Shown here piece by piece: positions 36,963 to 48,314 of a stretch of DNA of 64,000 bases. The number at the start of each line of letters is the position of its first letter. The first letter of the stretch is position 1. The notes under the pieces were generated by a model, which saw only the letters and a program-made list of their open reading frames with translations, was not told the DNA's origin and searched no databases. Source of the DNA: Halogeometricum sp. S1BR25-6 (GTDB taxonomy: Archaea > Halobacteriota > Halobacteria > Halobacteriales > Haloferacaceae). Both the position numbers and the translations under genes were made by a program. The stretch is from NCBI RefSeq assembly GCF_031624495.1, contig NZ_JAMQOP010000006.1, positions 1 through 64,000 on the forward strand, in the 5' to 3' direction.

Positions 36963-37553
36963 TCATCTGATAACGATGCCACCGTCGATTTCCATGTACG
37001 GGTGTCCATAGCCACAGTAGGTCAGGCAACTCAGCGTGTAATCGCCCCGTTGCGTCGCCCCTAACTGTCGAATGATGGGTCTGGTGGCATTTTGCGGAAG
37101 TGCAACCGGGTGCATCATCATTCCGCCGCCCATGTGAACCTGTCCGGAGGGCGTGATCGCGAGACTGTGGTCTGGGTACTGCTCATTTGCTTCTTCGAGT
37201 AGCTCGTGGAAGTCGCCGTCGGCCGGGGCCGGGATGCGTTCCTCGTTTCGTTCTTCGAGGGCCTCGTGGTCGGGAAGGGCGTCTCGAATCGACGCTGGGA
37301 GGGATTGGACGGCCTGACTCGCGAGCGTGTTGAACGATACGACACGGAGAACATCGTTCCGTTGCAGTCTGATGCGGTCCTGTTCCTCGCCGGACTCGTC
37401 GACGATGATGAAGCCCCAGTGATACGCGCCGACGTATATCGTTCGATCGACCCCGCCGCTGCTTCCCGGGAGATTCCCGACGCAGCCCGAGAGACTTGCG
37501 AGCCCAGCTCCGAGTGCAGTGAGAAACTCACGTCGCTGTACTGTCGGGGACAT
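36963..37553 (-). CDS. Tat lipoprotein with a CuA-type copper motif
   Basis: 196 aa. Twin-arginine signal (QRREFLTALGAGLASLSGC) with lipobox Cys24, so it is exported folded and anchored. The C-terminus has CLTYCGYGHPYM: Cys176-x3-Cys180-x3-His184-x2-Met187. This is the CuA ligand pattern of cytochrome oxidase subunit II and nitrous-oxide reductase; the remaining ligand could be His45 (YHWGF). A Met/His-rich segment (HMGGGMMMHP) lies before it. There is no haem-copper oxidase gene nearby and no transmembrane hairpin, so it is not an ordinary subunit II. A copper carrier or electron shuttle on the outer face is inferred. It is followed by the CDF gene on the same strand. Confidence 0.8.
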   Translation of the reverse strand: MSPTVQRREFLTALGAGLASLSGCVGNLPGSSGGVDRTIYVGAYHWGFIIVDESGEEQDRIRLQRNDVLRVVSFNTLASQAVQSLPASIRDALPDHEALEERNEERIPAPADGDFHELLEEANEQYPDHSLAITPSGQVHMGGGMMMHPVALPQNATRPIIRQLGATQRGDYTLSCLTYCGYGHPYMEIDGGIVIR

Positions 37554-38057: not shown

Positions 38058-38279
38058 TCAGCAGCAGTCGGGGTCGTCGGGCGACCACTCGCACGCGTTG
38101 CCAGTCGTCAAGTTGTTTTCGTCAACGTAGGTCGAGAGACACGCGTAGTTGCAGAAGTAGGTCGGCGACCCGCAGTCGTCGGTACAGTCGCGCACACAGA
38201 TCGGGTCGTGGTCGAAGATACGCGACCCGCAGTAGGCGCACGTCTCATCAACGTTGGGGAGTTCGACAGTCGTAGACAT
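38058..38279 (-). CDS. Small Cys-rich zinc-finger-like protein (73 aa)
   Basis: From ATG 38279 (MSTTVELPNVDETCAYCGS) it contains ten Cys in pairs (CAYC, CVRDC, CNYAC and a final CC), with one YFCNYACLSTYVDE stretch similar to TRASH/YHS-type metal-sensing fingers. The frame opens at 38378, but those residues are basic and unlike coding. Such small proteins near metal genes may bind copper or zinc. Function unknown. Confidence 0.65.
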   Translation of the reverse strand: MSTTVELPNVDETCAYCGSRIFDHDPICVRDCTDDCGSPTYFCNYACLSTYVDENNLTTGNACEWSPDDPDCC

Positions 38280-38378
38280 ACCTGTGCTACGGGCACGAGT
38301 CAAAAACGTATTTCGCCAGCTGACCATCGATATACTCCACCTCCGGGCTGAAGGCGGTGTGTGAGTGACAAGGAACAA

Positions 38379-38543
38379 CTAGAACTCGATCGCACCGATC
38401 ATCGGCTCGCCGACGCACTTCGGGCAGACATCGGTGTCGTATTTCTCCATACAGTGTCGGTGGCAGGAGATCCCGCAGTGCTCGCAGACGAACACCTCGT
38501 CGTCGCGAGCGCATTCCGAGTCACAGATGTAGCACTGAACCAT
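38379..38543 (-). CDS. Small RING/zinc-ribbon-like protein (54 aa)
   Basis: Pattern CYIC, CEHC, CHRHC, CPKC (from MVQCYICDSECARDDEVFVC to DTDVCPKCVGEP) resembles a cross-brace zinc finger of PHD/RING type, with eight Cys/His ligands. ATG 38543 gives the compact form. It is on the same strand as the 73-aa Cys-rich gene, about 100 bases upstream. It is probably a protein-protein or nucleic-acid adaptor; no enzyme activity is implied. Confidence 0.65.
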   Translation of the reverse strand: MVQCYICDSECARDDEVFVCEHCGISCHRHCMEKYDTDVCPKCVGEPMIGAIEF

Positions 38544-38781
38544 GGATACTCGAACGTTAACTCGCAAGCCGCATCAACGCTATGCTCGGCGCCTGATAGG
38601 TGGCTGATCTTCATCACGGTTACCGACCAAGTCTACTCCTGTTTGGAGACAAAATGAATGCCAAATCGTTGGCTACCCATTGCTCTCTTCGGGATACAAC
38701 CCGATCTCTGGGTACTTTGACGGAGTTAACTTTCGATTCTTAACAACAATTCGATTGAATGAGTAGAACGTCTTTCTACGT

Positions 38782-39507
38782 ATGGACACGACCACGGCGC
38801 CCACGGAGACGCTCGGTGGTAGCAAGACGCTCGTTCGAGGCAACGCCCTCGAGAAAACCTACGGGTCACGACTCCCGTTGGGACGGTCGACACCCGTTCT
38901 CACCGGTGCGGATATCGAGGTCCATGCTGGCGAGATCGTCGGCATCGTCGGCGAGAATGGGTCGGGCAAGTCCACGCTGATGAAGATTCTCGTCGGGGTT
39001 CTCGACCACGACGCGGGCACGGTCCAACGGCATGGAACCGTCGGATGGTGTCCGCAGGAACCCCTGCTCTACGATCGGTTGACCGTCTCAGAAACGTTCC
39101 GGCTGTTCGGCGCTGGCTACGACATGACGCGCGAGAAAATCGACGCGGCGAAGCAAAGACTGGCGGACGAACTCGACTTCGAGCAGTACCTTGACTACCG
39201 GATCGACCAGCTCAGCGGCGGGAACCGACAGAAGGTCAACCTCAGTGTCGCGTTGATGCACGACCCGGATGTCCTCATGCTCGACGAACCCTACACGGGG
39301 TTCGACTGGGAGACTTACCTGCGATTCTGGGACATGGCCCAGGACCTCGCGAACGACGGCACTGCCGTCGTCATGATCTCCCACCTAATTGAGGAGCGGA
39401 GTCGACTCGATCGCGTCTTCGAGGTGCGAGACGGACTGGTTCACGACGTGACCGACGAAGAGACCGAGAGCGGACTCAGGAGCGACCCGGAGGGGGAACA
39501 TGAATAG
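38782..39507 (+). CDS. ABC transporter ATP-binding protein
   Basis: 241 aa. Walker A is GENGSGKST (57-65), the Q-loop region is WCPQEPLLYDRLTVSE, the signature is QLSGGNRQKVNLSVAL, and Walker B is DVLMLDEPYTGFDW. The switch His is in VVMISHLIEE. The short form with the Phe/Asp after Walker B belongs to ABC-2 type exporters of the NosF/CcmA class. It overlaps the first permease gene by eight bases. Substrate is unknown; context suggests metal stress or assembly of exported copper proteins (NosDFY-like), which is inference. Confidence 0.92.
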   Translation: MDTTTAPTETLGGSKTLVRGNALEKTYGSRLPLGRSTPVLTGADIEVHAGEIVGIVGENGSGKSTLMKILVGVLDHDAGTVQRHGTVGWCPQEPLLYDRLTVSETFRLFGAGYDMTREKIDAAKQRLADELDFEQYLDYRIDQLSGGNRQKVNLSVALMHDPDVLMLDEPYTGFDWETYLRFWDMAQDLANDGTAVVMISHLIEERSRLDRVFEVRDGLVHDVTDEETESGLRSDPEGEHE

Positions 39508-40237
39508 GTTCGTCGTCGGCGTTCGGGCGAACCTCCAGACGTTTGTCCGGACGCCCCTGAACGTCGTCCTTGCGCTGGTGCTCCCGCTCGTGGTCATCGA
39601 GGGGTGGGGCCAGGCGATGGCCGGACTGCCGTCAATGCCGACCGTCGAGGGGATTCCGCTCGACCTGGGACGCCTCCTCGGCGCGATCTTCGGCGTCGCC
39701 ATCATCGCCGGGCTGATGGGACTGGTCCAGATGATCAGTGCCCGGGAGGCTGACCGACGGCTCGTTCAGACCGGGTACGCGCCACGAACGCTGCTCGCGA
39801 CGCGGCTGGCGACTCTCGCGGGTGTCACGATCGTCGTCGCGGGGGTGAACTTCGGCGTCCTCTGGCTGACGATCGACGTCGAAGCACCCCTGTTTGTGTT
39901 CGCGTTCCTCGCGCTCGCGGGCGTCGTCTATGCTTTCCTCGGTGCGCTCGTCGGCGCAGTGCTTCCGCGACTGTTCGAGGGGTCGCTCGTCGTCGTCTTC
40001 CTCGCGATGATGGACGCGTTCCTCAGTGGCGACAGCCCGCTCGCCGCGGACGTCCCCGAGTTCGTCCAGTACTTCCCGTTGTATCATCCGAAGGAACTCC
40101 TCCAGTCGGCCGCCTTCGACGGTACGTTCGCTGCGGGTGACCTCGTCTTCGTCGGCGGGTACCTTCTCGTGTTGCTCGTCCTCGTGACTGCCGTATTCGG
40201 TGCGACGATGCGCACGGCCGGGGGGTGGTCAGCGTGA
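39500..40237 (+). CDS. ABC-2 type permease, first copy
   Basis: 245 aa with six hydrophobic segments (PLNVVLALVLPLVVIEGWG; LLGAIFGVAIIAGLMGLVQM; ATLAGVTIVVAGVNFGVLWL; LVVVFLAMMDAFLSG; FVGGYLLVLLVLVTAVFG). The loop with EADRRLVQTGYAPRTLLATR after helix 2 is a typical ABC-2 coupling region. It overlaps both neighbours by a few bases and forms a heterodimeric exporter with the next gene. Confidence 0.88.
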   Translation: MNRFVVGVRANLQTFVRTPLNVVLALVLPLVVIEGWGQAMAGLPSMPTVEGIPLDLGRLLGAIFGVAIIAGLMGLVQMISAREADRRLVQTGYAPRTLLATRLATLAGVTIVVAGVNFGVLWLTIDVEAPLFVFAFLALAGVVYAFLGALVGAVLPRLFEGSLVVVFLAMMDAFLSGDSPLAADVPEFVQYFPLYHPKELLQSAAFDGTFAAGDLVFVGGYLLVLLVLVTAVFGATMRTAGGWSA

Positions 40238-40986
40238 ACCGAACGGCCACGGCGTTCGGTATCGGGCTCCGGGAACACGCCCGCAACTACGTCCTCGTGG
40301 CGCTCCTGGTCGTCCTCCCAGTGTCGTTCATCACGCTCGCCTTCGCGGTCACCCAGGACGTCCAGATGCCGGTCCGGACGGTCGTCGACGGCGAGACGAC
40401 GACCGTGATGCGGGGGATGCCCGAGGTCCACGGCGTGATCATGACACCGATCACGAGTTCGTTCATCGCCGGCCTCGCCGGTCTATTCCTAATGCGCGAG
40501 GCGAGAGACACGGACGGCCGCCTCGCTGTCGTCGGCTACCGAGCACGGCAGGTCATCGCCGCACGGTTCGGCGTCCTTGCAGTCATCACGCTTGTCGTGG
40601 TCGCTGTCTCCGTCGGGGTGATGCTCATCGACTTCCAGCCCGAACAGCTGTGGTGGTTCGTCGCCGCGATGCTCGTCCTTTCAGTTACCTACGGACTTAT
40701 TGGGATGCTCGTCGGCGCCGCCTTCAACCGCCTCGCGGGCCTGTGGATTATGTTGATCCTCCCGATGATCGATATCGGGCTTTTCCAGGACCCGCTGTTC
40801 GTCCAGTCTGAACCCGAGTGGTGGATGAAACTCTTCCCGGGCTACCATCCCGTCCGCGTGATGGTCGATACCGGACTCACGACGGACCTGGACACGGCTG
40901 CGTCGCTCGGCTGGGGGGCCGGCTATCTCCTCGTCGTCGGACTCCTCGCCGTGTGGGTGTACTACCGCGGAACTCGAACGACGTGA
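40225..40986 (+). CDS. ABC-2 type permease, second copy
   Basis: 253 aa from GTG 40225, or 250 aa from GTG 40234 (VNRTATAFGIGLREHARNYV). Same topology as the first permease, with the matching coupling loop DTDGRLAVVGYRARQVIAAR and conserved ending FPGYHPVRVMVDTGLTTDL. The two permeases are paralogues and would make a heterodimeric pore driven by the 38782-39507 ATPase. Starts overlap, which implies translational coupling. No substrate motif is visible. Confidence 0.88.
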   Translation: MVSVNRTATAFGIGLREHARNYVLVALLVVLPVSFITLAFAVTQDVQMPVRTVVDGETTTVMRGMPEVHGVIMTPITSSFIAGLAGLFLMREARDTDGRLAVVGYRARQVIAARFGVLAVITLVVVAVSVGVMLIDFQPEQLWWFVAAMLVLSVTYGLIGMLVGAAFNRLAGLWIMLILPMIDIGLFQDPLFVQSEPEWWMKLFPGYHPVRVMVDTGLTTDLDTAASLGWGAGYLLVVGLLAVWVYYRGTRTT

Positions 40987-41081
40987 CGACGCGCTCGAAC
41001 GAAGGTGGTATCCGCGGCCGGACGGATCGATCGAGGGCACCCGACGCGATTCGCTGACTTACCGAACATCGACGAGGCGTT

Positions 41082-41816
41082 TCACCTGTCTTCCAACCGC
41101 TCACGACGCTTCTGGAACTCTTCTTCGTCGATCTCGCCTCGTGCGTAACGGCGTTGGAGGGTTTCCATCGCGGAATCATCGCTCTCGGGAGATGCGTCAC
41201 CTCGTCCTAGTGCCCAATAGAGGAGTCCGCCAGCTAAGCCGAGCATTCCGAGTGCCCCGCCGACGAACGGGACGCCGCCCCACCCGCCTCTCGAGCCACC
41301 CATCATGCCCCCTCCGCCGGGCCCCATCATGCCGCCACCGGTGCTCCCGCTTCCGTCGACGTCCGAGCCGATGGCCACGGCGCCGTTCTGGACGATCGTC
41401 TCGCTATCGGGGACCTCGCCGTCGGGGATTGAGCTCTCTTCGGCCGGGCCGCCGGGGCTGCCGACGACGATGCGGCCGACCATCCCGACCGACTTGTGCG
41501 GGATGCAGTAGTAGTCGTACGTGCCTGGCGTTTCGAACGTGTACTCGAAGCTTCCCGACGAGATGGTTCCACTGTCGAATGCGCTGGCGTCGGATGGAAT
41601 CCGATTCTCGTAGGCGGTCGCCGAGTGTGCTCCGGCCGCTAGCTCGAAGCGAACGGTCGTGCCGGGTTCGACGTGGAGTCCGATCGGGTCGAAGTAGTTG
41701 TTGCCCATCTTCACGACGGGCGTCTCCTGTGCGCTCGCTGGCTGAGAGATCCCTACACCGGCGACTGCGCCGGCACCGAGTACTCCCAGGAACTGACGTC
41801 GGTTATAGTTCGTCAT
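41082..41816 (-). CDS. Exported cupredoxin (halocyanin-like) fused to a membrane-SHOCT module
   Basis: 244 aa from ATG 41816 (MTNYNRRQFLGVLGAGAVAG). A Tat signal leads into a blue-copper domain with the four ligands: His in AGAHSATAYE, then Cys, His and Met in YYCIPHKSVGMVG. A Gly/Met-rich linker (GGGMMGPGGGGMMGGSRGG), one transmembrane helix (VGGALGMLGLAGGLLYWALG) and a cytoplasmic SHOCT tail (METLQRRYARGEIDEEEFQK) follow. The combination is unusual: the SHOCT tail is the same as in three neighbouring proteins. It probably receives copper or electrons outside and is tied to a shared complex inside (inference). Confidence 0.88.
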   Translation of the reverse strand: MTNYNRRQFLGVLGAGAVAGVGISQPASAQETPVVKMGNNYFDPIGLHVEPGTTVRFELAAGAHSATAYENRIPSDASAFDSGTISSGSFEYTFETPGTYDYYCIPHKSVGMVGRIVVGSPGGPAEESSIPDGEVPDSETIVQNGAVAIGSDVDGSGSTGGGMMGPGGGGMMGGSRGGWGGVPFVGGALGMLGLAGGLLYWALGRGDASPESDDSAMETLQRRYARGEIDEEEFQKRRERLEDR

Positions 41817-41841
41817 GTGGTTTGAATCAGTCTGTTGGTCG

Positions 41842-42150
41842 TTATTTTCGCACGACACCGACGAGGCGCTGGACGAATCCAGACGATTGCTGGGTCGCGC
41901 GCTCGATGGCTGACTCGAGGTCGTTCCGGTCGACGATGCCGATGAACTCGGCGGTCTGCTCTCCGTTCGCGTAGACGAGGGTCGTCGGCGTCTTTCGGAC
42001 GCCGTATTCTTCGGCTGTTTCGAGGTCCGTCTGAATGTCGACCTCTTTGAATTCCACGTCCGGATACTTGTCCTCGAGGCCGTCGTTTTTCTCCCGCTGT
42101 GTTGCGCATGCTCCGCACGTCTCTTGGGTGAAGAGGATTACTTCAGTCAC
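41842..42150 (-). CDS. Thioredoxin-fold protein with CGAC motif
   Basis: 102 aa from GTG 42150 (VTEVILFTQETCGACATQRE); ATG 42183 would add 11 residues. The redox-active pair is Cys-Gly-Ala-Cys, and the cis-Pro loop is VRKTPTTLVYANGE. No signal peptide, so it is cytosolic. It lies 26 bases upstream of the cupredoxin-SHOCT gene on the same strand and may keep Cys of copper proteins or chaperones reduced. Size and motif suit a mini-thioredoxin or glutaredoxin; the partner is unknown. Confidence 0.85.
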   Translation of the reverse strand: MTEVILFTQETCGACATQREKNDGLEDKYPDVEFKEVDIQTDLETAEEYGVRKTPTTLVYANGEQTAEFIGIVDRNDLESAIERATQQSSGFVQRLVGVVRK

Positions 42151-42326
42151 ATTGTACACTACGGTATTGTAACTTAACCACATTACTATTCAGAATTGTA
42201 AGCTGAGAGCCCCCCATTTCTTTGATTCGAAGACACGCTCGCACAGGTGTGATAGGACGGAGCCTGAGGAACAAAATCGAGTACACGGGCTTGTGGTATC
42301 CGAATCGCGGTGTGTACTCGTTGGGT

Positions 42327-42680
42327 TTACCCCGACCGTTCGAGTTTCTCGCGGCGGGATTCGAACTCTTCGTCGGTGAGGTCGCCGCGGGCGTACGCCG
42401 TGCGGAGTTCTTCCATCGCGGGGTTTCGAGACGTCTGCGTTTCGCTCATGCGCCGGAAGACGAGGTAGCCACCGCCGAGGAGGATGAGGAGGAAGATAAG
42501 CGGGACGAGCATCCCGATGAACGGCCACCACCCGCCAGTACCGCCATACTGGCCCATCATCCCGCCGTACCCCATCATTCCGCCGAATCCCATCCCCATT
42601 GTGAGCAACGGGAGCAAGATGATCGCTCCGAGTATCAGGAGAACGATCGTCGTGGTGTCGAGCTGGTTCGACGAAGCCAT
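42327..42680 (-). CDS. SHOCT-domain membrane protein with GGMMG segment
   Basis: 117 aa: first transmembrane helix (TTIVLLILGAIILLPLLTMG), then FGGMMGYGGMMGQYGGTGGW, a second helix (IGMLVPLIFLLILLGGGYLV), and the SHOCT tail (MEELRTAYARGDLTDEEFES). It is nearly the same design as 37563-37931 and 43198-43551. The Met-Met pairs would face the extracellular side between the helices and could bind Cu(I). It follows the DUF302 gene by five bases, so the two are one unit. Confidence 0.85.
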   Translation of the reverse strand: MASSNQLDTTTIVLLILGAIILLPLLTMGMGFGGMMGYGGMMGQYGGTGGWWPFIGMLVPLIFLLILLGGGYLVFRRMSETQTSRNPAMEELRTAYARGDLTDEEFESRREKLERSG

Positions 42681-42685
42681 CGAGA

Positions 42686-43102
42686 TCAGGCCTCCGACGT
42701 GGATCCGAGTTCGTTGGTGACGGCCGAGAGAACACGCTCGAAACGCTCGTTGACCTCGGTCGCGATCGAGTCGAGCGCATCGTTGTCCGCGATACCGACC
42801 AATTGCTTTGGATCAACGGCACTCACAACGATATCGCCGTCATCGGTTTCGTAGACGATGACGTTACACGGGAGGAGTGCGCCGAGTTCGATCTCTTCGG
42901 TCAGTCCCTCGTATGCCAGCGGGGGATTACACGCACCGAGAATGCGATACTGGCGGAACTCTTCGCCGAGTTTTTCCTTGAGCGTCGCCTGGATATCGAT
43001 GTCACAGAGGACGCCGAATCCTTCGTCTTTGAGCGCAGCGATTGTCTTGTCGACGACGTCGTCGAAATCGCCAGTGACTGAAGTCTGTATTGTGTATTCC
43101 AT
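42686..43102 (-). CDS. DUF302 protein
   Basis: 138 aa, soluble. The start MEYTIQTSVTGDFDDVVDKT and the central YRILGACNPPLAYEGLTEE, then LLPCNVIVYETDDGDIVVSA, are the DUF302 signature, with a conserved Cys in GACNPP and another in LPCN. The domain forms small dimers and is often found next to copper or heavy-metal genes, so metal or redox sensing has been suggested, without proof. It leads a two-gene unit with the downstream SHOCT protein. A short hairpin (43114-43127) lies directly upstream. Confidence 0.92.
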   Translation of the reverse strand: MEYTIQTSVTGDFDDVVDKTIAALKDEGFGVLCDIDIQATLKEKLGEEFRQYRILGACNPPLAYEGLTEEIELGALLPCNVIVYETDDGDIVVSAVDPKQLVGIADNDALDSIATEVNERFERVLSAVTNELGSTSEA

Positions 43103-43113
43103 GTAATATTATA

Positions 43114-43127
43114 CCCCGTCCACGGGG
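43114..43127 (-). promoter_or_regulatory. CCCCGT/ACGGGG inverted repeat beside a TATA-like box
   Basis: CCCCGT at 43114-43119 and ACGGGG at 43122-43127 form a 6-bp perfect inverted repeat with a 2-base loop, next to TATAATATT (minus strand) before the DUF302 start. The TATA-like box is only about ten bases from ATG 43102, closer than normal, so the true promoter may lie elsewhere. Possible operator; weak. Confidence 0.3.
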
Positions 43128-43197
43128 TTAACGGTTGGGTGCCGCAACGGCGGGCGTTGGAAGTGTGGTGTACCGGTTGGAACAGCAGCGGTTCCGG

Positions 43198-43551
43198 TCA
43201 TCCGGTACGTTCGAGCTGTTTTCGCCGTCGATCGAATTCGTCATCCGAGAGCTCCCCGCGGGCGTAGCGCTCACGGAGAACCGACAGCGACTGCTTTTCG
43301 TTCCCGCCGGATCCTCGGTTGAGGAGCGCATAGACGAGGTAGAGTGGGACGGCGATGAGGAGCCCCATCCAGAGGAGTCCCCAGAGCCCCATCGCTCCGC
43401 CGAAGAGGCCCCAGCCGCCGCCCATCATGCCCCCGCCGTAGCTCCCACTACCGTGGGCGGCAGCCGTTCCAGTCGTCGCGACCAGCAGCGGGACGGCGAG
43501 GATCGCGAGTCGCCGAGCAGTGCGTCCGATGTGAGTGGTGAGTTGCGTCAT
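43198..43551 (-). CDS. SHOCT-domain membrane protein with signal-like N-terminus
   Basis: 117 aa: signal-type helix (RRLAILAVPLLVATTGTAAA), then HGSGSYGGGMMGGGWGLFGG, a transmembrane helix (LLWMGLLIAVPLYLVYALL) and a SHOCT tail (LSVLRERYARGELSDDEFDR). Third free-standing member of the local SHOCT set. The GGGMMGGG segment repeats the Met/Gly theme. It follows the Met/His-rich exported protein by 57 bases on the same strand. Copper-related role inferred from neighbours. Confidence 0.85.
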   Translation of the reverse strand: MTQLTTHIGRTARRLAILAVPLLVATTGTAAAHGSGSYGGGMMGGGWGLFGGAMGLWGLLWMGLLIAVPLYLVYALLNRGSGGNEKQSLSVLRERYARGELSDDEFDRRRKQLERTG

Positions 43552-43608
43552 TATCTTGAGTTGGTGGATCGTGGTATTCGGTTGAAGCGATCGAAACGGT
43601 CAGGGCCG

Positions 43609-43929
43609 TCAGCAGTGGCCCTGCCCGTACATCCCGCCGTTGTAGTCGTCGTTAGCCCCGTCGTGGTATTCCTCGTCAGCCATGTCCTGGGCCATCTCGT
43701 CGACGGTCACACCCATGTGCGACTCCATCCACTCGACAGCACCGGGACCCATGTGTTCGGTCATCTGTGCCTCCATCCAAGTGGCCCATTCATCTGCGGT
43801 GGTATTGTCCGTGGGCGCGTCGTCAGCGGCCGTTTCGTCGCCGTGTGCGCTGACAACGGGGGCGGCGAACACGAGTCCGACGATCGCGAGCGCCACGAGC
43901 AGCCAGCGGCCCAGTTTGAAGTTGGTCAT
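43609..43929 (-). CDS. Exported Met/His-rich protein (106 aa)
   Basis: Signal peptide (WLLVALAIVGLVFAAPVVSA) followed by an acidic mature part with many Met and His (WMEAQMTEHMGPGAVEWMES, HMGVTVDEMAQDMADEEYHD) and a C-terminal GGMYGQGHC. No membrane anchor besides the signal. Arrays of Met/His/Cys outside the cell are typical of copper-binding proteins such as PcoE/CopK types, but this sequence is not one of them. It lies downstream of the multicopper oxidase on the same strand. A periplasm-like copper sponge is a reasonable inference. Confidence 0.75.
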   Translation of the reverse strand: MTNFKLGRWLLVALAIVGLVFAAPVVSAHGDETAADDAPTDNTTADEWATWMEAQMTEHMGPGAVEWMESHMGVTVDEMAQDMADEEYHDGANDDYNGGMYGQGHC

Positions 43930-44157
43930 TGTCTTTCTCCTCGGTTAGCCGTAGGACTGCTCGGGAGTTATCGACGAGGGTGTGAATCCACACAGGAGAA
44001 CGTTCGAGAACGTGTATAGGGCGTTCTAATCGTTTTTCATAACTGGGATCGTTCATCTGTACCGAATACGATGGATTTGGGCGAGACACGTGTTCTCCAA
44101 GAAGAGGACCGGAACCGCACACGAGTACAAATAGCCACAAACCAGAAGCACCAGTGG

Positions 44158-45582
44158 TCACTCGACGTATTTTACGATGCGTGCCATCCCCGCATCCAGG
44201 TGATACAGGTTGTGACAGTGGAATAGCCACCGGCCGGGATTGTCCGCGTGGAAGTCAATCGTCACTTGTCCCATATGCCCAGGCACGAGTACAGTGTCTT
44301 TGATCGCATTGCCGACCTTGAAGAAGTGTCCGTGAAGGTGCATCGGGTGAACGACTGGGCTCTGATTGGTCATTCGAATCCGGACGTGTTCTTCGGGTCG
44401 AATCTGGAATGGATCGGCATCCGGATAGACCTGCCCGTCAATCATCCATATGTAAGACTGGCCGCTACCACGGGAGAGCGTCAGATCGAACGTTCGATCC
44501 GGATCTCCACTCACCCCGTCGAGCGAGGATATCGCCCGCAAGTCTCCGTACTGCAGTTGGTTACTGGCCGCCGACGGGGGCTGTGGGCTCTCCCCAGCCG
44601 CCGACTCGTACTCGACGACAGCTCTAGCTGGTGGTTCGTTTCCATCGAGCGCATCCGCTTGAACGGCCCACGTGCCCGGATTTGTCGCCTCAACCACGGC
44701 ATCGTAGCGCTCACCGGCACCGAAGACGAACGAGTCCACGTCGACGGGTTCGACAGGTCGACCATCGGCGTGGGTCACTGTCATCTCGTGGCCGGCGATC
44801 CGGACACCGAAGACCGTCGCGCTGGCAGCGTTCACGAACCGGAAGCGAATCCGCTCACCCTCCGTTACGTCGAACGTCTGTGGATTCTCAGGGAGTCGAC
44901 CGTTGATCAGGAGCCCTTCGTATGGCGGCCGAACGTCTCCCATCATTCCGCCTCTCCCACCCATTCCGCCACCGCCGCCCATCCCCCCGTCCGAAGGATG
45001 TTCCGGCTCTCCAGGGAGGTAATCGTCGACGATCACGACGTACTCGCGGTCGTACTCGACGTGTGGGTTACGCTCTTCGACGATCAGTGGCCCCAGCAAT
45101 CCCCGGTCGAGTTGGAGTCCGACGTGGCTGTGGTAAAAATACGTCCCGGCAGGTTCGGCGCGGAACGTGTACGTAAACGTATCGCCGGAAGCGATCGGGT
45201 CTTGCGTTACGTTCGGCACCCCATCGACCGGATTCGGGACGGGAACTCCGTGCCAGTGAATCGTCGTCTCCTCCTGGAGGTCGTTGGTCAGTTCGACGCT
45301 GAGCACGTCACCCTCCTGAACACGTAGCTCCGGTCCCGGGAATTGACCCTCGTACATCCAGTTGGCCGTCGACGTATCGGGGGCTGGGCGAATCGTCCCG
45401 GACGCCGCGGTGAGGTTGACGGACGTATCCGGCTCGGCCGTGACTGTCGAGCGGGGCTTCACCTCACGACCCTCACCATCGTGAGTGCCCGGTAGCTGAC
45501 CGGCACATCCCGCGAGCGAGCCGAGGGTGGTCGCCCCCGTCAGCTGGAGGAGTCTGCGACGGGAGAAGCCTGTGGACCGCAT
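44158..45582 (-). CDS. Tat-exported multicopper oxidase (CuO/CopA-oxidase type)
   Basis: 474 aa from ATG 45582. A twin-arginine lipoprotein signal (SRRRLLQLTGATTLGSLAGC, Cys26) precedes three cupredoxin domains. Copper ligands: HWHG (109-112), HSH (151-153), HPMHLHGH in domain 3, and HCHNLYHLDAGM (about 455-466) with the type-1 Met. A Met/Gly-rich insertion (GGMGGGGGMGGRGGMMGD) lies in domain 2, as in the Met-rich regions of CueO that bind Cu(I). The likely role is oxidation of toxic Cu(I) to Cu(II) outside the cell. The promoter has a TATA box 26 bases upstream and an inverted repeat. Confidence 0.94.
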   Translation of the reverse strand: MRSTGFSRRRLLQLTGATTLGSLAGCAGQLPGTHDGEGREVKPRSTVTAEPDTSVNLTAASGTIRPAPDTSTANWMYEGQFPGPELRVQEGDVLSVELTNDLQEETTIHWHGVPVPNPVDGVPNVTQDPIASGDTFTYTFRAEPAGTYFYHSHVGLQLDRGLLGPLIVEERNPHVEYDREYVVIVDDYLPGEPEHPSDGGMGGGGGMGGRGGMMGDVRPPYEGLLINGRLPENPQTFDVTEGERIRFRFVNAASATVFGVRIAGHEMTVTHADGRPVEPVDVDSFVFGAGERYDAVVEATNPGTWAVQADALDGNEPPARAVVEYESAAGESPQPPSAASNQLQYGDLRAISSLDGVSGDPDRTFDLTLSRGSGQSYIWMIDGQVYPDADPFQIRPEEHVRIRMTNQSPVVHPMHLHGHFFKVGNAIKDTVLVPGHMGQVTIDFHADNPGRWLFHCHNLYHLDAGMARIVKYVE

Positions 45583-45603
45583 ATCCGTTATATTGGAGGC
45601 TTG

Positions 45604-45637
45604 CGAGTATAGGCCTCGCGGTGACTGTGAGGTCACC
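45604..45637 (-). promoter_or_regulatory. Multicopper oxidase promoter with GGTGAC/GTCACC inverted repeat
   Basis: A TATA-like element (minus strand TATACTC, about 45604-45611) sits roughly 26 bases before ATG 45582, typical for leaderless transcripts. Directly upstream, GGTGAC (45620-45625) and GTCACC (45632-45637) form a 6-bp inverted repeat with 6-base spacer, where an activator or repressor would touch BRE and TATA. Regulation by the neighbouring membrane HTH protein is a guess. Confidence 0.5.
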
Positions 45638-45709
45638 CTGCCGTACTGGTTCCGAATCCAGAACTCATACCTACGTTTTGGACGAGGATAGACTCGTGGG
45701 AACGGTCCG

Positions 45710-46303
45710 CTAGTTCGCCTGTTTCTGTTGTAAGTCGTCGCTCGGGTAAATCCGATACGTTCGCCCTTGGCGCTCGCGGTACAGGAGGCCGCGCTTCTCG
45801 AGAGCGCTCACCGTCTGACTGACCTTGCTCTTCGAGAAGTCCGAGCGATCCCTGAGTTCGATCTGTGTGATACCGGGTGAGGAGAGAACCGGTTCAAGAA
45901 TCCGGCGTTCGTCTTCCGGTAAGAGATCCAATATACGAGCCTGCGGCTGAGACTCTGGATTGATTGCTGCCTCTGATTGGGTAGATCTCTCCGATGAATC
46001 AGCGCTCTCTGGATCTGTTGGATTCGTTATTTGTGCGCGCTCGCTTGCATCTGTGTTGGTGAGCTCGTCCCGAACAATGAGATATCCTCCACCGACGATA
46101 GTCGAGACAAGAAGGGTTCCAAGAACGTACCAGAGCGGATTTGTGCCGTGAACGCCTCCCATCGACGCACCCATATCCATCATCGACCCCATCTCTCCGA
46201 ATGCCTGCTGTTGCTTATACGCATCCCAGCTGAGCGCACCACCGACGATAACGACGGCAGCGACGAGGAGGCCAACCACTGCATCGGCTCGCCGCCGATT
46301 CAT
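45710..46303 (-). CDS. Membrane-anchored winged-helix regulator with Met-rich outer loop
   Basis: 197 aa. Two transmembrane helices (ADAVVGLLVAAVVIVGGALS, about 6-25; NPLWYVLGTLLVSTIVGGG, about 55-73) enclose an outside loop with AFGEMGSMMDMGASMGGVHG: six Met and a His. A linker leads to a cytoplasmic winged helix (ILEPVLSSPGITQIELRDRS; DFSKSKVSQTVSALEKRGLL; wing RERQGRTYRIYP). The winged-helix part belongs to a known haloarchaeal class of membrane regulators, but the Met-rich loop suggests direct sensing of Cu(I). It lies just upstream of the oxidase gene on the same strand. Sensor role is inferred. Confidence 0.85.
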   Translation of the reverse strand: MNRRRADAVVGLLVAAVVIVGGALSWDAYKQQQAFGEMGSMMDMGASMGGVHGTNPLWYVLGTLLVSTIVGGGYLIVRDELTNTDASERAQITNPTDPESADSSERSTQSEAAINPESQPQARILDLLPEDERRILEPVLSSPGITQIELRDRSDFSKSKVSQTVSALEKRGLLYRERQGRTYRIYPSDDLQQKQAN

Positions 46304-46347
46304 ACCTCACTCCTCAGTTTGGCGTGTCGCGTAGTCATACGTTCTCG

Positions 46348-46608
46348 TTAACGAACCAGCGCTGTACCAGTTTTGATTCCCCGATGCAAGACCTTTGTGG
46401 AGACTGAAATCCGGATCGGGACACGAGCGTTACCATTACCCGCCTGAGTCGGCCTGTACGGGGACACAATGATCGTCGTGACACCACCCAGAAGGAAATT
46501 GAGCGCTGCGCGCTCGGCACCACCCTCAACGAGGTACTCGCATTCGCCGCTCCCTAATCGATTGAACAGGGTCGTCCCACTCCCCAATATGTTTTTAGTG
46601 ATCGTCAT
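46348..46608 (-). CDS. Hypothetical protein overlapping the permease end (86 aa)
   Basis: From ATG 46608: MTITKNILGSGTTLFNRLGS, then YLVEGGAERAALNFLLGGVT, and a basic C-terminus. The start overlaps the end of the permease gene by 14 bases, so translational coupling is possible. The first half looks coding, with a Gly-rich hydrophobic stretch; the second half is less convincing and may be frameshifted. Not recognised. Confidence 0.35.
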   Translation of the reverse strand: MTITKNILGSGTTLFNRLGSGECEYLVEGGAERAALNFLLGGVTTIIVSPYRPTQAGNGNARVPIRISVSTKVLHRGIKTGTALVR

Positions 46609-47992
46609 GGGATTCACCTTCTTCAGAGACCTGCGGATGTTGATGTGCGAACTCGGAGGGGTGCTTCTCGAACGTTCGCTTGCACTGATTCGAGCAGAAG
46701 TAGTACGTCTCGTTCTCGTGGGTGAGACTCGGCCCGCTGTCGTCGGTCCGCATCCCACAAACGGGGTCGCGATACTGACCAGGTGCACCTAATCCCCGGC
46801 GATAGACGTAGAGGAGGGCCCCCGAGAGGACGAACGCGATGATGTTGAGGTAGAAGGTGTAGTTCAACTCGAAGTAGGTCTGTTCCGATGCTGTCTCGCC
46901 ACCGGCCAAGTCGGGGACGATGCCAAACGCGTCGAATAGTAGTTCCATGAGGAAACCGGTGAACGCCATCGTCACGAAGAAGACGCCGAGGATGTACAGC
47001 ATGATCTTCCAGCCGTAGTACTTCCGGTAGACGTTCAGAACGGGAATCGTGATGAGGTCGGCGTAGACGAACGCGATGATCCCGGCGAAGCTGACACCAC
47101 CGCCCCACAGCGCGACCGCGAAGGGGACGTTGCCCATACTGCCGACGAAACTGAGAACGGCGATGGTGACACCCATAATCGCGTTTTCGGCGGTCACAAG
47201 CAGGCCGTCGCCCTGGATGAACAGGGTGTTCCAGACCCACTGGGGAACGAAAACGATGACGAATCCGGATATAAGAAACCCTGCGACGATATCCTTCCAG
47301 ATCATCGACCACTCCTTGCGGTACTGATTTCCAACCTTGTACCACCCACCCCACGAGAGGAGTTCGTCGCGCCACCCGCCGCTACTTGCGGCTTCCTGTT
47401 GGTAGGTCTCCAGACAACCCTCCGAGCAGAACTTCAGCGTCTCGCCACCATCGGTCACCAGCGAGTACTCGTCTTTGCCTTCCATCCCGCAGGTCGGATC
47501 CTCGGTGATTCCCTGCTCGTTGTCGCTGTGATTCAGTTCCTGCCGGACTTGCTCGAACAGATTCTCGGGGAGCGTGAGGTGGACGATGACAGCCATCACG
47601 GCGATGAGGATGATCCCGCCGAGCAGTTCCGCGAGAAGGAACTCCCAGCCTAGCAGAATCAGGATCATCAATCCGAGTTCGACGATGAGGTTCGTCGACG
47701 CAAACATGAACGCGAGGAAGTTCACCGCATGTGCTCCCTTCTTGAACAGTCCCTTCCCGATGGCGACCGCGCCGAAGCTACAGCCACTACTCGCGGCGCC
47801 GAACACCGTCGCCTTTGTGAGACCGTTCAGGTCCCCCTCTCCGAGGACGTTGGCCATTCGCTCTTTCGAGACGTAGACCTGGACGAGACTCGTGATGACG
47901 AGCCCCATGATGATCGCCCACGCAGCGGTCCAGAGGAAGCCAACTCCTATTCGTAAGGACTCGAGAATCCCGTCGACGAGAACGGCTTGCAT
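46595..47992 (-). CDS. Permease (ArsP/DUF318 type) with two YHS metal-binding domains
   Basis: 465 aa. Two four-helix permease halves (WTAAWAIIMGLVITSLVQVY, GAASSGCSFGAVAIGKGLFK in the first; FVGSMGNVPFAVALWGGGVS, FAGIIAFVYADLITIPVLNV in the second). Between them lies a YHS domain (DPTCGMEGKDEYSLVTDGGE, FCSEGCLETYQQ), and a second YHS sits at the C-terminus (DPVCGMRTDDSGPS, YFCSNQCKRTFEKHPSEFA), followed by a His-rich end. The permease family exports methylarsenite or other metal species. YHS domains bind Cu/Zn/heavy metals and here probably deliver or gate the substrate. Complete. Confidence 0.88.
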   Translation of the reverse strand: MQAVLVDGILESLRIGVGFLWTAAWAIIMGLVITSLVQVYVSKERMANVLGEGDLNGLTKATVFGAASSGCSFGAVAIGKGLFKKGAHAVNFLAFMFASTNLIVELGLMILILLGWEFLLAELLGGIILIAVMAVIVHLTLPENLFEQVRQELNHSDNEQGITEDPTCGMEGKDEYSLVTDGGETLKFCSEGCLETYQQEAASSGGWRDELLSWGGWYKVGNQYRKEWSMIWKDIVAGFLISGFVIVFVPQWVWNTLFIQGDGLLVTAENAIMGVTIAVLSFVGSMGNVPFAVALWGGGVSFAGIIAFVYADLITIPVLNVYRKYYGWKIMLYILGVFFVTMAFTGFLMELLFDAFGIVPDLAGGETASEQTYFELNYTFYLNIIAFVLSGALLYVYRRGLGAPGQYRDPVCGMRTDDSGPSLTHENETYYFCSNQCKRTFEKHPSEFAHQHPQVSEEGESHDDH

Positions 47993-48314
47993 ATCTACAC
48001 TATCACAGGCATCTGTTTTGTTATTTGTTCTTAAGAAACCGGGGCTGTAGGCGGAGTAAATCTTGCATTCAAAGGTAATTCTTGCTAGCAGCTGTGGTCG
48101 ACCGTTCGAGGACTGTGTTCGCGCTCATGAGTTTTTGCACGTCACTGGTTCCAGTCGGTGGTTGCTCCTTGGTCTCCCGACGGCTCAGTCACACAGATCG
48201 GGGTGTTGTACAGCTGGTTCCCTCCACGAGATTCTTGCTCTATGTTAACAAGAGAAATCTCTCTTTCGAATTGTAACAGGAACCCGAATGAAGGAGTAGA
48301 GCGTATCTCTAGTC
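47993..48314. other. 322-base intergenic stretch
   Basis: No intact gene. The left end should contain the permease promoter (AT-rich TTTTGTTATTTGTTCTTAAG). On the minus strand at about 48080-48190, a frame SDVQKLMSANTVLERSTTAA ends in a stop and may be a small remnant. A basal promoter for the 48315 gene lies at the right end. No other structure was seen. Confidence 0.3.

Follow-up and report, generated by a model that had tools for sequence, protein, structure and literature searches.

To our knowledge, extracytoplasmic copper is sensed mainly by two-component kinases such as CusS and CopS, and the copper regulators of archaea are cytosolic. CusS of E. coli and its relatives carries a flexible, Met/His-rich extracytoplasmic loop between two transmembrane helices, and this loop has been implicated in copper sensing (PMC10100754). 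Copper-responsive transcription regulators described from archaea include CopR of P. furiosus (PMC7830388) and VNG1179C of Halobacterium (PMC3551603). Membrane-bound one-component regulators are also known from archaea: ArnR and ArnR1 of Sulfolobus acidocaldarius combine a helix-turn-helix (HTH) domain with two transmembrane helices and act directly on promoters (PMC6396743).

The protein described here, REG, is encoded in a 64,000-nt stretch of DNA (the window) from Halogeometricum sp. S1BR25-6, of the class Halobacteria in the phylum Halobacteriota. No description of REG or of an equivalent was found in the open-access literature, and the available portions of the silver-stress and H. mediterranei copper papers do not mention it. 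Its parts are as follows.

45710..46303, minus strand: REG, membrane-anchored winged-helix regulator of 197 aa (open reading frame; DUF7343 and MarR_2 matches)
46226..46285, minus strand: transmembrane helix 1, residues ~7-26 (hydropathy; AlphaFold2; Trp26 invariant)
46148..46192, minus strand: cluster of Met and His in the outer loop, residues 38-52, a candidate site for Cu(I)/Ag(I) (conservation in 40 homologues)
46073..46135, minus strand: transmembrane helix 2, residues ~57-77 (hydropathy; AlphaFold2)
45941..46072, minus strand: linker, residues 78-121, variable and probably disordered (57% mean column conservation; pLDDT <50 at residues 85-115)
45734..45940, minus strand: cytosolic winged helix, residues 122-190 (Pfam, AlphaFold2, Foldseek)

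The reading frame, strand and coordinates agree with those given in a sequence-only reading of this DNA, and Pfam, hydropathy and AlphaFold2 all support its description of REG as a membrane one-component winged-helix protein. Residues 130-185 match DUF7343 (PF24034) with 37.4 bits against a curated cut-off of 27.6 (2.3e-9); the match to MarR_2 (4e-8) is likewise above its Pfam cut-off, as is that to the MarR profile. The best Foldseek matches are MarR-family regulators (HosA, MexR, PcaV; E ~1e-4), and the recognition segment FSKSKVSQTV is invariant in the homologue alignment. Hydropathy places the membrane helices at residues 6-24 and 59-77. In the AlphaFold2 model, built with 40 sequences, residues 3-38 and 56-89 form long helices, and the winged helix (130-187) reaches pLDDT 84-88. 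The rest of the model is weak, and with a low overall pTM (0.37) it does not predict how helices and loop are arranged. The linker and membrane helices come before the winged helix, and the chain stops just past the wing. Pfam found neither a histidine kinase core nor a TRASH domain in REG. Transmembrane helices and a DNA-binding domain in one protein, with no kinase, fit the class of membrane one-component regulators. The loop of residues 27-56 would lie outside the cell, because the N-terminus is basic (MNRRR, by the positive-inside rule) and the winged HTH is of a cytosolic type.

For this loop, six Met and one His had been counted. The His (His52) is there, and the Met number five (residues 38, 41, 42, 44, and 48). 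Together with the start Met these are all the Met of REG, His52 is its sole His, and it has no Cys. A survey of 292 genomes of the class, one per species, found homologues in 98. Many of the homologues are plasmid-borne and annotated merely as 'MarR family', and a second copy, 84% identical, lies on another contig of this genome. No variation is seen at W26, M41, M44, H52, G53, or P56 among 40 non-redundant sequences (50-84% identity), and M38 and M48 are each present in at least 90 per cent of them. Mean column conservation is 0.90 over residues 38-56 and 0.95 in the winged helix, with 0.57 in the linker. Every one of the 40 loops contains at least four residues that are Met or His, and none of the 40 sequences contains Cys. 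The loop takes up 162 of the 190 internal Met in the homologues and 46 of the 62 His. This concentration, together with the absence of Cys, means that a soft-metal site could hardly lie elsewhere in REG. The two most diverged loops exchange Met for His (VHGEMMGHTAVHGPHP) and keep the ligands, and the Natronococcus versions have His in place of Met. Conservation of the Met loop in homologues beside copper genes had been named beforehand as a test of the proposed sensor, and it was upheld by the invariance of M41, M44, and H52. This is the pattern expected of a soft-metal site under selection; it is compatible with metal binding, not proof of it.

The genes around REG are listed here in their order on the minus strand, with REG itself between the first two.

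46595..47992, minus strand: permease of the ArsP_1 type with two YHS domains, immediately upstream of REG (PF03773, 1.8e-57)
44158..45582, minus strand: multicopper oxidase bearing a twin-arginine signal, next gene downstream of REG (Cu-oxidase Pfam domains, 1e-25 to 1e-41)
43609..43929, minus strand: HP106, predicted secreted Met/His-rich protein of 106 aa, first gene behind the promoter element described below (sequence; linkage to REG)
43198..43551, minus strand: SHOCT membrane protein with a Met-rich (MMGGG) segment (PF09851, 1.3e-9)
42686..43102, minus strand: DUF302 protein, same gene run as HP106 (PF03625, 2.8e-26)
42327..42680, minus strand: second SHOCT membrane protein with a Met-rich segment (PF09851, 2.6e-7)
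41842..42183, minus strand: thioredoxin-like protein, same gene run as HP106 (PF00085, 1.5e-11)
41082..41858, minus strand: plastocyanin-type cupredoxin fused to a SHOCT tail (PF00127, 1.5e-10; PF09851, 5.8e-9)

REG had been placed directly upstream of the oxidase gene, and this is correct: the two share a strand and are separated by a 127-bp gap (45583-45709). HP106 has no Pfam family above cut-off and is linked to REG at most loci. From their composition and context, HP106 and the SHOCT proteins are putative copper binders. The permease has a weak match, below cut-off, to the SO_0444 Cu/Zn efflux family.

We compared 27 non-redundant REG loci with large flanks. A copper marker (ATPase, oxidase, cupredoxin, HMA chaperone or four-helix copper protein) lies within 6 kb in 20 of the 27, and 5 further loci have HP106 or SHOCT genes. 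The ATPases linked to REG carry copper motifs (CPC, YN, MxxSS, or CPH), and all three that were scanned score above the TIGR01511 copper cut-off. The linkage of homologues to copper genes that the sequence-only reading had asked about is thus strong, and it includes copA-type ATPases.

A second copper island in the same genome (L075, G000:C7:87000-106000) holds the 84% identical REG with HP106, SHOCT, DUF302, and cupredoxin genes, as well as an AsnC-TRASH regulator, an HMA protein, and a CPH copper ATPase. Further genes lie beyond the gene run in the window. An ABC transporter (an ATPase and two membrane proteins; 38782-40986) is encoded opposite the copper gene run, and its counterparts adjoin REG in Haloarcula marismortui. 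The interval 36963-37553 encodes a protein with a twin-arginine signal, a CoxII/cupredoxin-like end (CLTYCGYGHPYME) and the motif VHMGGGMMMHP, for which there was no Pfam match. Two small Cys-rich reading frames at 38058-38567 have a TRASH-like look; one was scanned and had no Pfam match.

The permease is a frequent partner upstream of REG, and Met/His-rich proteins are usually encoded nearby. Metal might then be sensed indirectly, with REG controlling the island and the element while the signal comes through the permease or through a copper-loaded secreted protein docking on the loop. We consider this unlikely, since the loop is the sole ligand-rich part of REG and is kept with its Met and His at the many loci where the permease is missing (L058-L064, L067-L069). 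We rate lower still the idea that the loop senses oxidants (hypohalites, peroxide) by Met oxidation, or silver or another soft metal, with the island serving a general envelope-stress response. In its favour, Met is prone to oxidation, the operon includes thioredoxin and DUF302 genes, and cytochrome c genes are found close to distant homologues from another class. Against it, the invariant His and the Met-to-His exchanges are more readily explained by a metal site than by an oxidation switch, and the ATPases linked to REG are of the copper type.

The oxidase promoter had been put forward as the target of REG, on account of an inverted repeat between 45604 and 45637. Two features fall in this interval.

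45620..45637, no strand: repeat GGTGACTGTGAGGTCACC, not conserved and probably due to chance
45603..45619, minus strand: GCGAGGCCTATACTCGC, a stretch that covers the oxidase TATA box and is conserved in orthologues, at a distance of 21 bp from the ATG (orthologous promoters)

The perfect repeat GGTGACTGTGAGGTCACC does exist, but it is not conserved in orthologues. By our arithmetic, about 0.3 perfect repeats with 6-bp arms and some spacing are expected in 127 bp, so its presence is not unusual. As a candidate REG operator, GGTGACN6GTCACC was found in no orthologous oxidase promoter, although the REG recognition segment is invariant, which argues against the repeat as a REG site. The conserved part of the interval is GCGAGGCCTATACTCGC instead. 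This is its only exact copy in the genome, and among the promoters compared it is confined to oxidase genes; it was therefore rejected as a shared regulon site. It is true that REG adjoins the oxidase and that the repeat sits just upstream of the oxidase TATA region, yet an oxidase is present in only 8 of the 27 REG neighbourhoods. That REG binds the repeat and mainly controls the oxidase is, in our estimate, very improbable. With a conserved promoter of its own, the oxidase may be controlled separately from the element described next.

The best candidate target of REG lies before HP106.

43976..44041, minus strand: conserved promoter element, model R1 (promoter comparison and genome scan)
43997-44013, minus strand: core of the element, ACGTTCTCGAACGTTCT (within the R1 element)

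The element spans ~70 bp, has the form AAACGnTTARA-N11-ACGnTCTCGAACGnTCT-N8-TTCACACCCA, and was first seen before HP106. Its core is invariant in 22 diverse promoters, and the spacing from element to ATG is nearly fixed. Immediately before the core stands a TATA-like nTTARA; read otherwise, the core runs into the end of a TATAn. The element contains two ACGnTCT units, whose 10-bp spacing would bring both to the same side of the double helix, as one would expect if a pair of winged helices bound next to each other. The element precedes extracytoplasmic, copper-type genes of at least three unrelated families, and the genes behind it encode HP106-type and other His/Met-rich secreted proteins, SHOCT membrane proteins (G046, G254, L069), and putative cupredoxins. 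In G062 and G105 it stands before lipoproteins with a cupredoxin-like end; a Pfam scan of the lipoprotein from L153 matched no family. The promoters of REG itself and of the permease are conserved among orthologues and do not match the element; the R1 model is absent from the oxidase promoter as well.

Within this genome the core occurs once without mismatch (43997-44013); the copy at the second REG island differs at one position. Two other core matches were not reported by the full R1 model. The element sites are those at the two REG islands and one 73 kb away, before a third HP106-like gene (L147, G000:C6:116800-121800). In five other genomes (G194, G210, G254, G265, G284), elements occur on contigs other than that of REG, at least 20 kb from contig ends. 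Exact 17-mer matches in the REG-negative genomes G182, G251, G264, and G277 lack the flanks and were judged to be chance. Between the core and the start of HP106 is a leader of ~70 nt (43930-43996), in which TTCACACCC and a GAGGAG just before the ATG are conserved across loci. The leader could hold post-transcriptional control; Rfam had no matches over 41000-48200, a range that includes it.

We then ran R1, a sequence-only model built from the 22 diverse copies, over the same 292 genomes. REG and the element were found together in 91 genomes, REG alone in 7, the element alone in 4, and neither in 190. Fisher's test gives p = 1.6e-61 with an odds ratio of ~600, a value that is inflated by shared islands and genome relatedness and describes association, not the probability of regulation. 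Part of the co-occurrence is linkage, because REG and the element usually lie close together on mobile islands. Three of the 7 REG-only genomes (G127, G188, G220) hold only fragments of REG, and in three of the 4 element-only genomes (G003, G065, G228) the core is altered and no intact HP106 turned up. No HP106 is recognisable in 20 genomes with both REG and the element; in those of the 20 that were inspected, the genes behind the element encode the other His/Met-rich proteins, SHOCT membrane proteins and lipoproteins named above.

The usual linkage of element and REG would also arise if the element belonged to another regulator of the island, or were a conserved strong promoter and leader, while REG regulated, for example, the oxidase or the permease. 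The conserved stretch may partly be leader sequence, and the oxidase promoter has a conserved inverted repeat of its own. A CopR/TRASH domain, however, is present in 291 of the 292 genomes, and so near-universal a regulator cannot explain the patchy distribution of the element. No regulator other than REG was recognised beside the element at the loci that have diverged furthest (L062, L063, L067-L069), and the three genomes with fragmentary REG lack the element. We regard this alternative as improbable.

The explanation we prefer, with a probability of roughly 0.6, is that REG is a transmembrane one-component, copper-responsive regulator that senses through its Met/His loop and acts at the element through its winged helix. 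The Met and His of the 15-residue outer loop would serve as ligands for Cu(I) or Ag(I) at the outer surface of the membrane, and binding would alter the packing or pairing of the membrane helices. The signal would then run through the flexible linker to the cytosolic MarR-like winged helix, acting at the element of the HP106 operon and of other extracytoplasmic copper-type genes. From the position of the core, right behind a TATA-like sequence, we would expect REG to repress at low copper by occluding the promoter and to release it at high copper; activation is also possible.

Parts of this explanation differ in strength. The architecture, the conserved outer ligands, the copper context, and the element with its association to REG are observed, and metal binding, signalling through the helices and DNA binding at the core are inferred. 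REG probably controls extracytoplasmic copper genes, and direct sensing of Cu(I) or Ag(I) by the loop is somewhat more likely than not. The genes behind the element indicate a role in controlling extracellular copper-binding proteins, or cell-surface copper buffering, rather than mainly the oxidase. The sequence-only reading picked out a real and probably important regulator, its guess at the signal is plausible, and its target was probably wrong. In the best reading REG complements the cytosolic CopR/TRASH regulators. There is about an even chance that it represents an undescribed archaeal class, in which a Met/His loop reads outside Cu(I)/Ag(I) for a winged helix on the same chain while CopR/TRASH senses copper inside.

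If true, REG would be a minimal transmembrane metal sensor, one small protein that reads outside copper by Met and binds DNA, and the cell would sense copper outside through REG and copper inside through CopR/TRASH, as two distinct sensors. Cu(I) is the form preferred by Met ligands and is stabilised by concentrated chloride; haloarchaea are for this reason a sensible place for a Met-based sensor. With a defined element and regulon the idea is directly testable, and it would assign roles to a number of gene families that are so far uncharacterised.

The REG layout recurs in distant relatives from another class of the phylum, whose outer loops include HHMMM and MRGHMGMMGMMG; this suggests that the design is old. 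Homology of the N-terminal helices between these and haloarchaeal REG could not be demonstrated (hhalign, 5%); what they have in common is confined to the winged helix and the layout. The two-helix winged-helix proteins with HHMMM outer loops (L177-L187) lie near cytochrome c, CopD-like, and DUF411 genes, and a paralogue (L181:3961-4497) has Cys and Trp instead.

Among described families, MarR proteins share the winged-helix fold and provide the automatic annotation of REG, but their N- and C-terminal flanking helices form a dimerisation domain that REG lacks, having membrane helices instead. L077 of this genome and other haloarchaeal membrane-anchored DUF7343 proteins resemble REG in joining a winged helix to an extracellular part; they differ in having a signal-like helix, a large folded outer domain, and one anchor, with no Met loop. 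CadC/ToxR proteins, unlike REG, are bacterial and have an N-terminal DNA-binding domain, a single helix, and a large periplasmic domain. They resemble it in holding sensor and DNA-binding domain in one membrane protein (PMC5430869). CopR and the Lrp-TRASH regulators, relatives of which are also present in REG copper islands, are cytosolic and use Cys ligands in a TRASH domain, whereas REG has neither TRASH nor Cys. Nearest in ligands is CusS, which has the same two flanking helices and controls extracytoplasmic copper handling, but it works as a histidine kinase and relies on a distinct response regulator, whereas REG carries its own DNA-binding domain. Nearest in architecture is ArnR, with an HTH and two transmembrane helices. 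ArnR, however, has an N-terminal HTH, a sensor/HAMP-like region and two C-terminal helices, and responds to a starvation signal (PMC6396743); REG has the opposite domain order, beginning with the helices, and differs further in its ligand-rich outer loop and its setting among copper genes.
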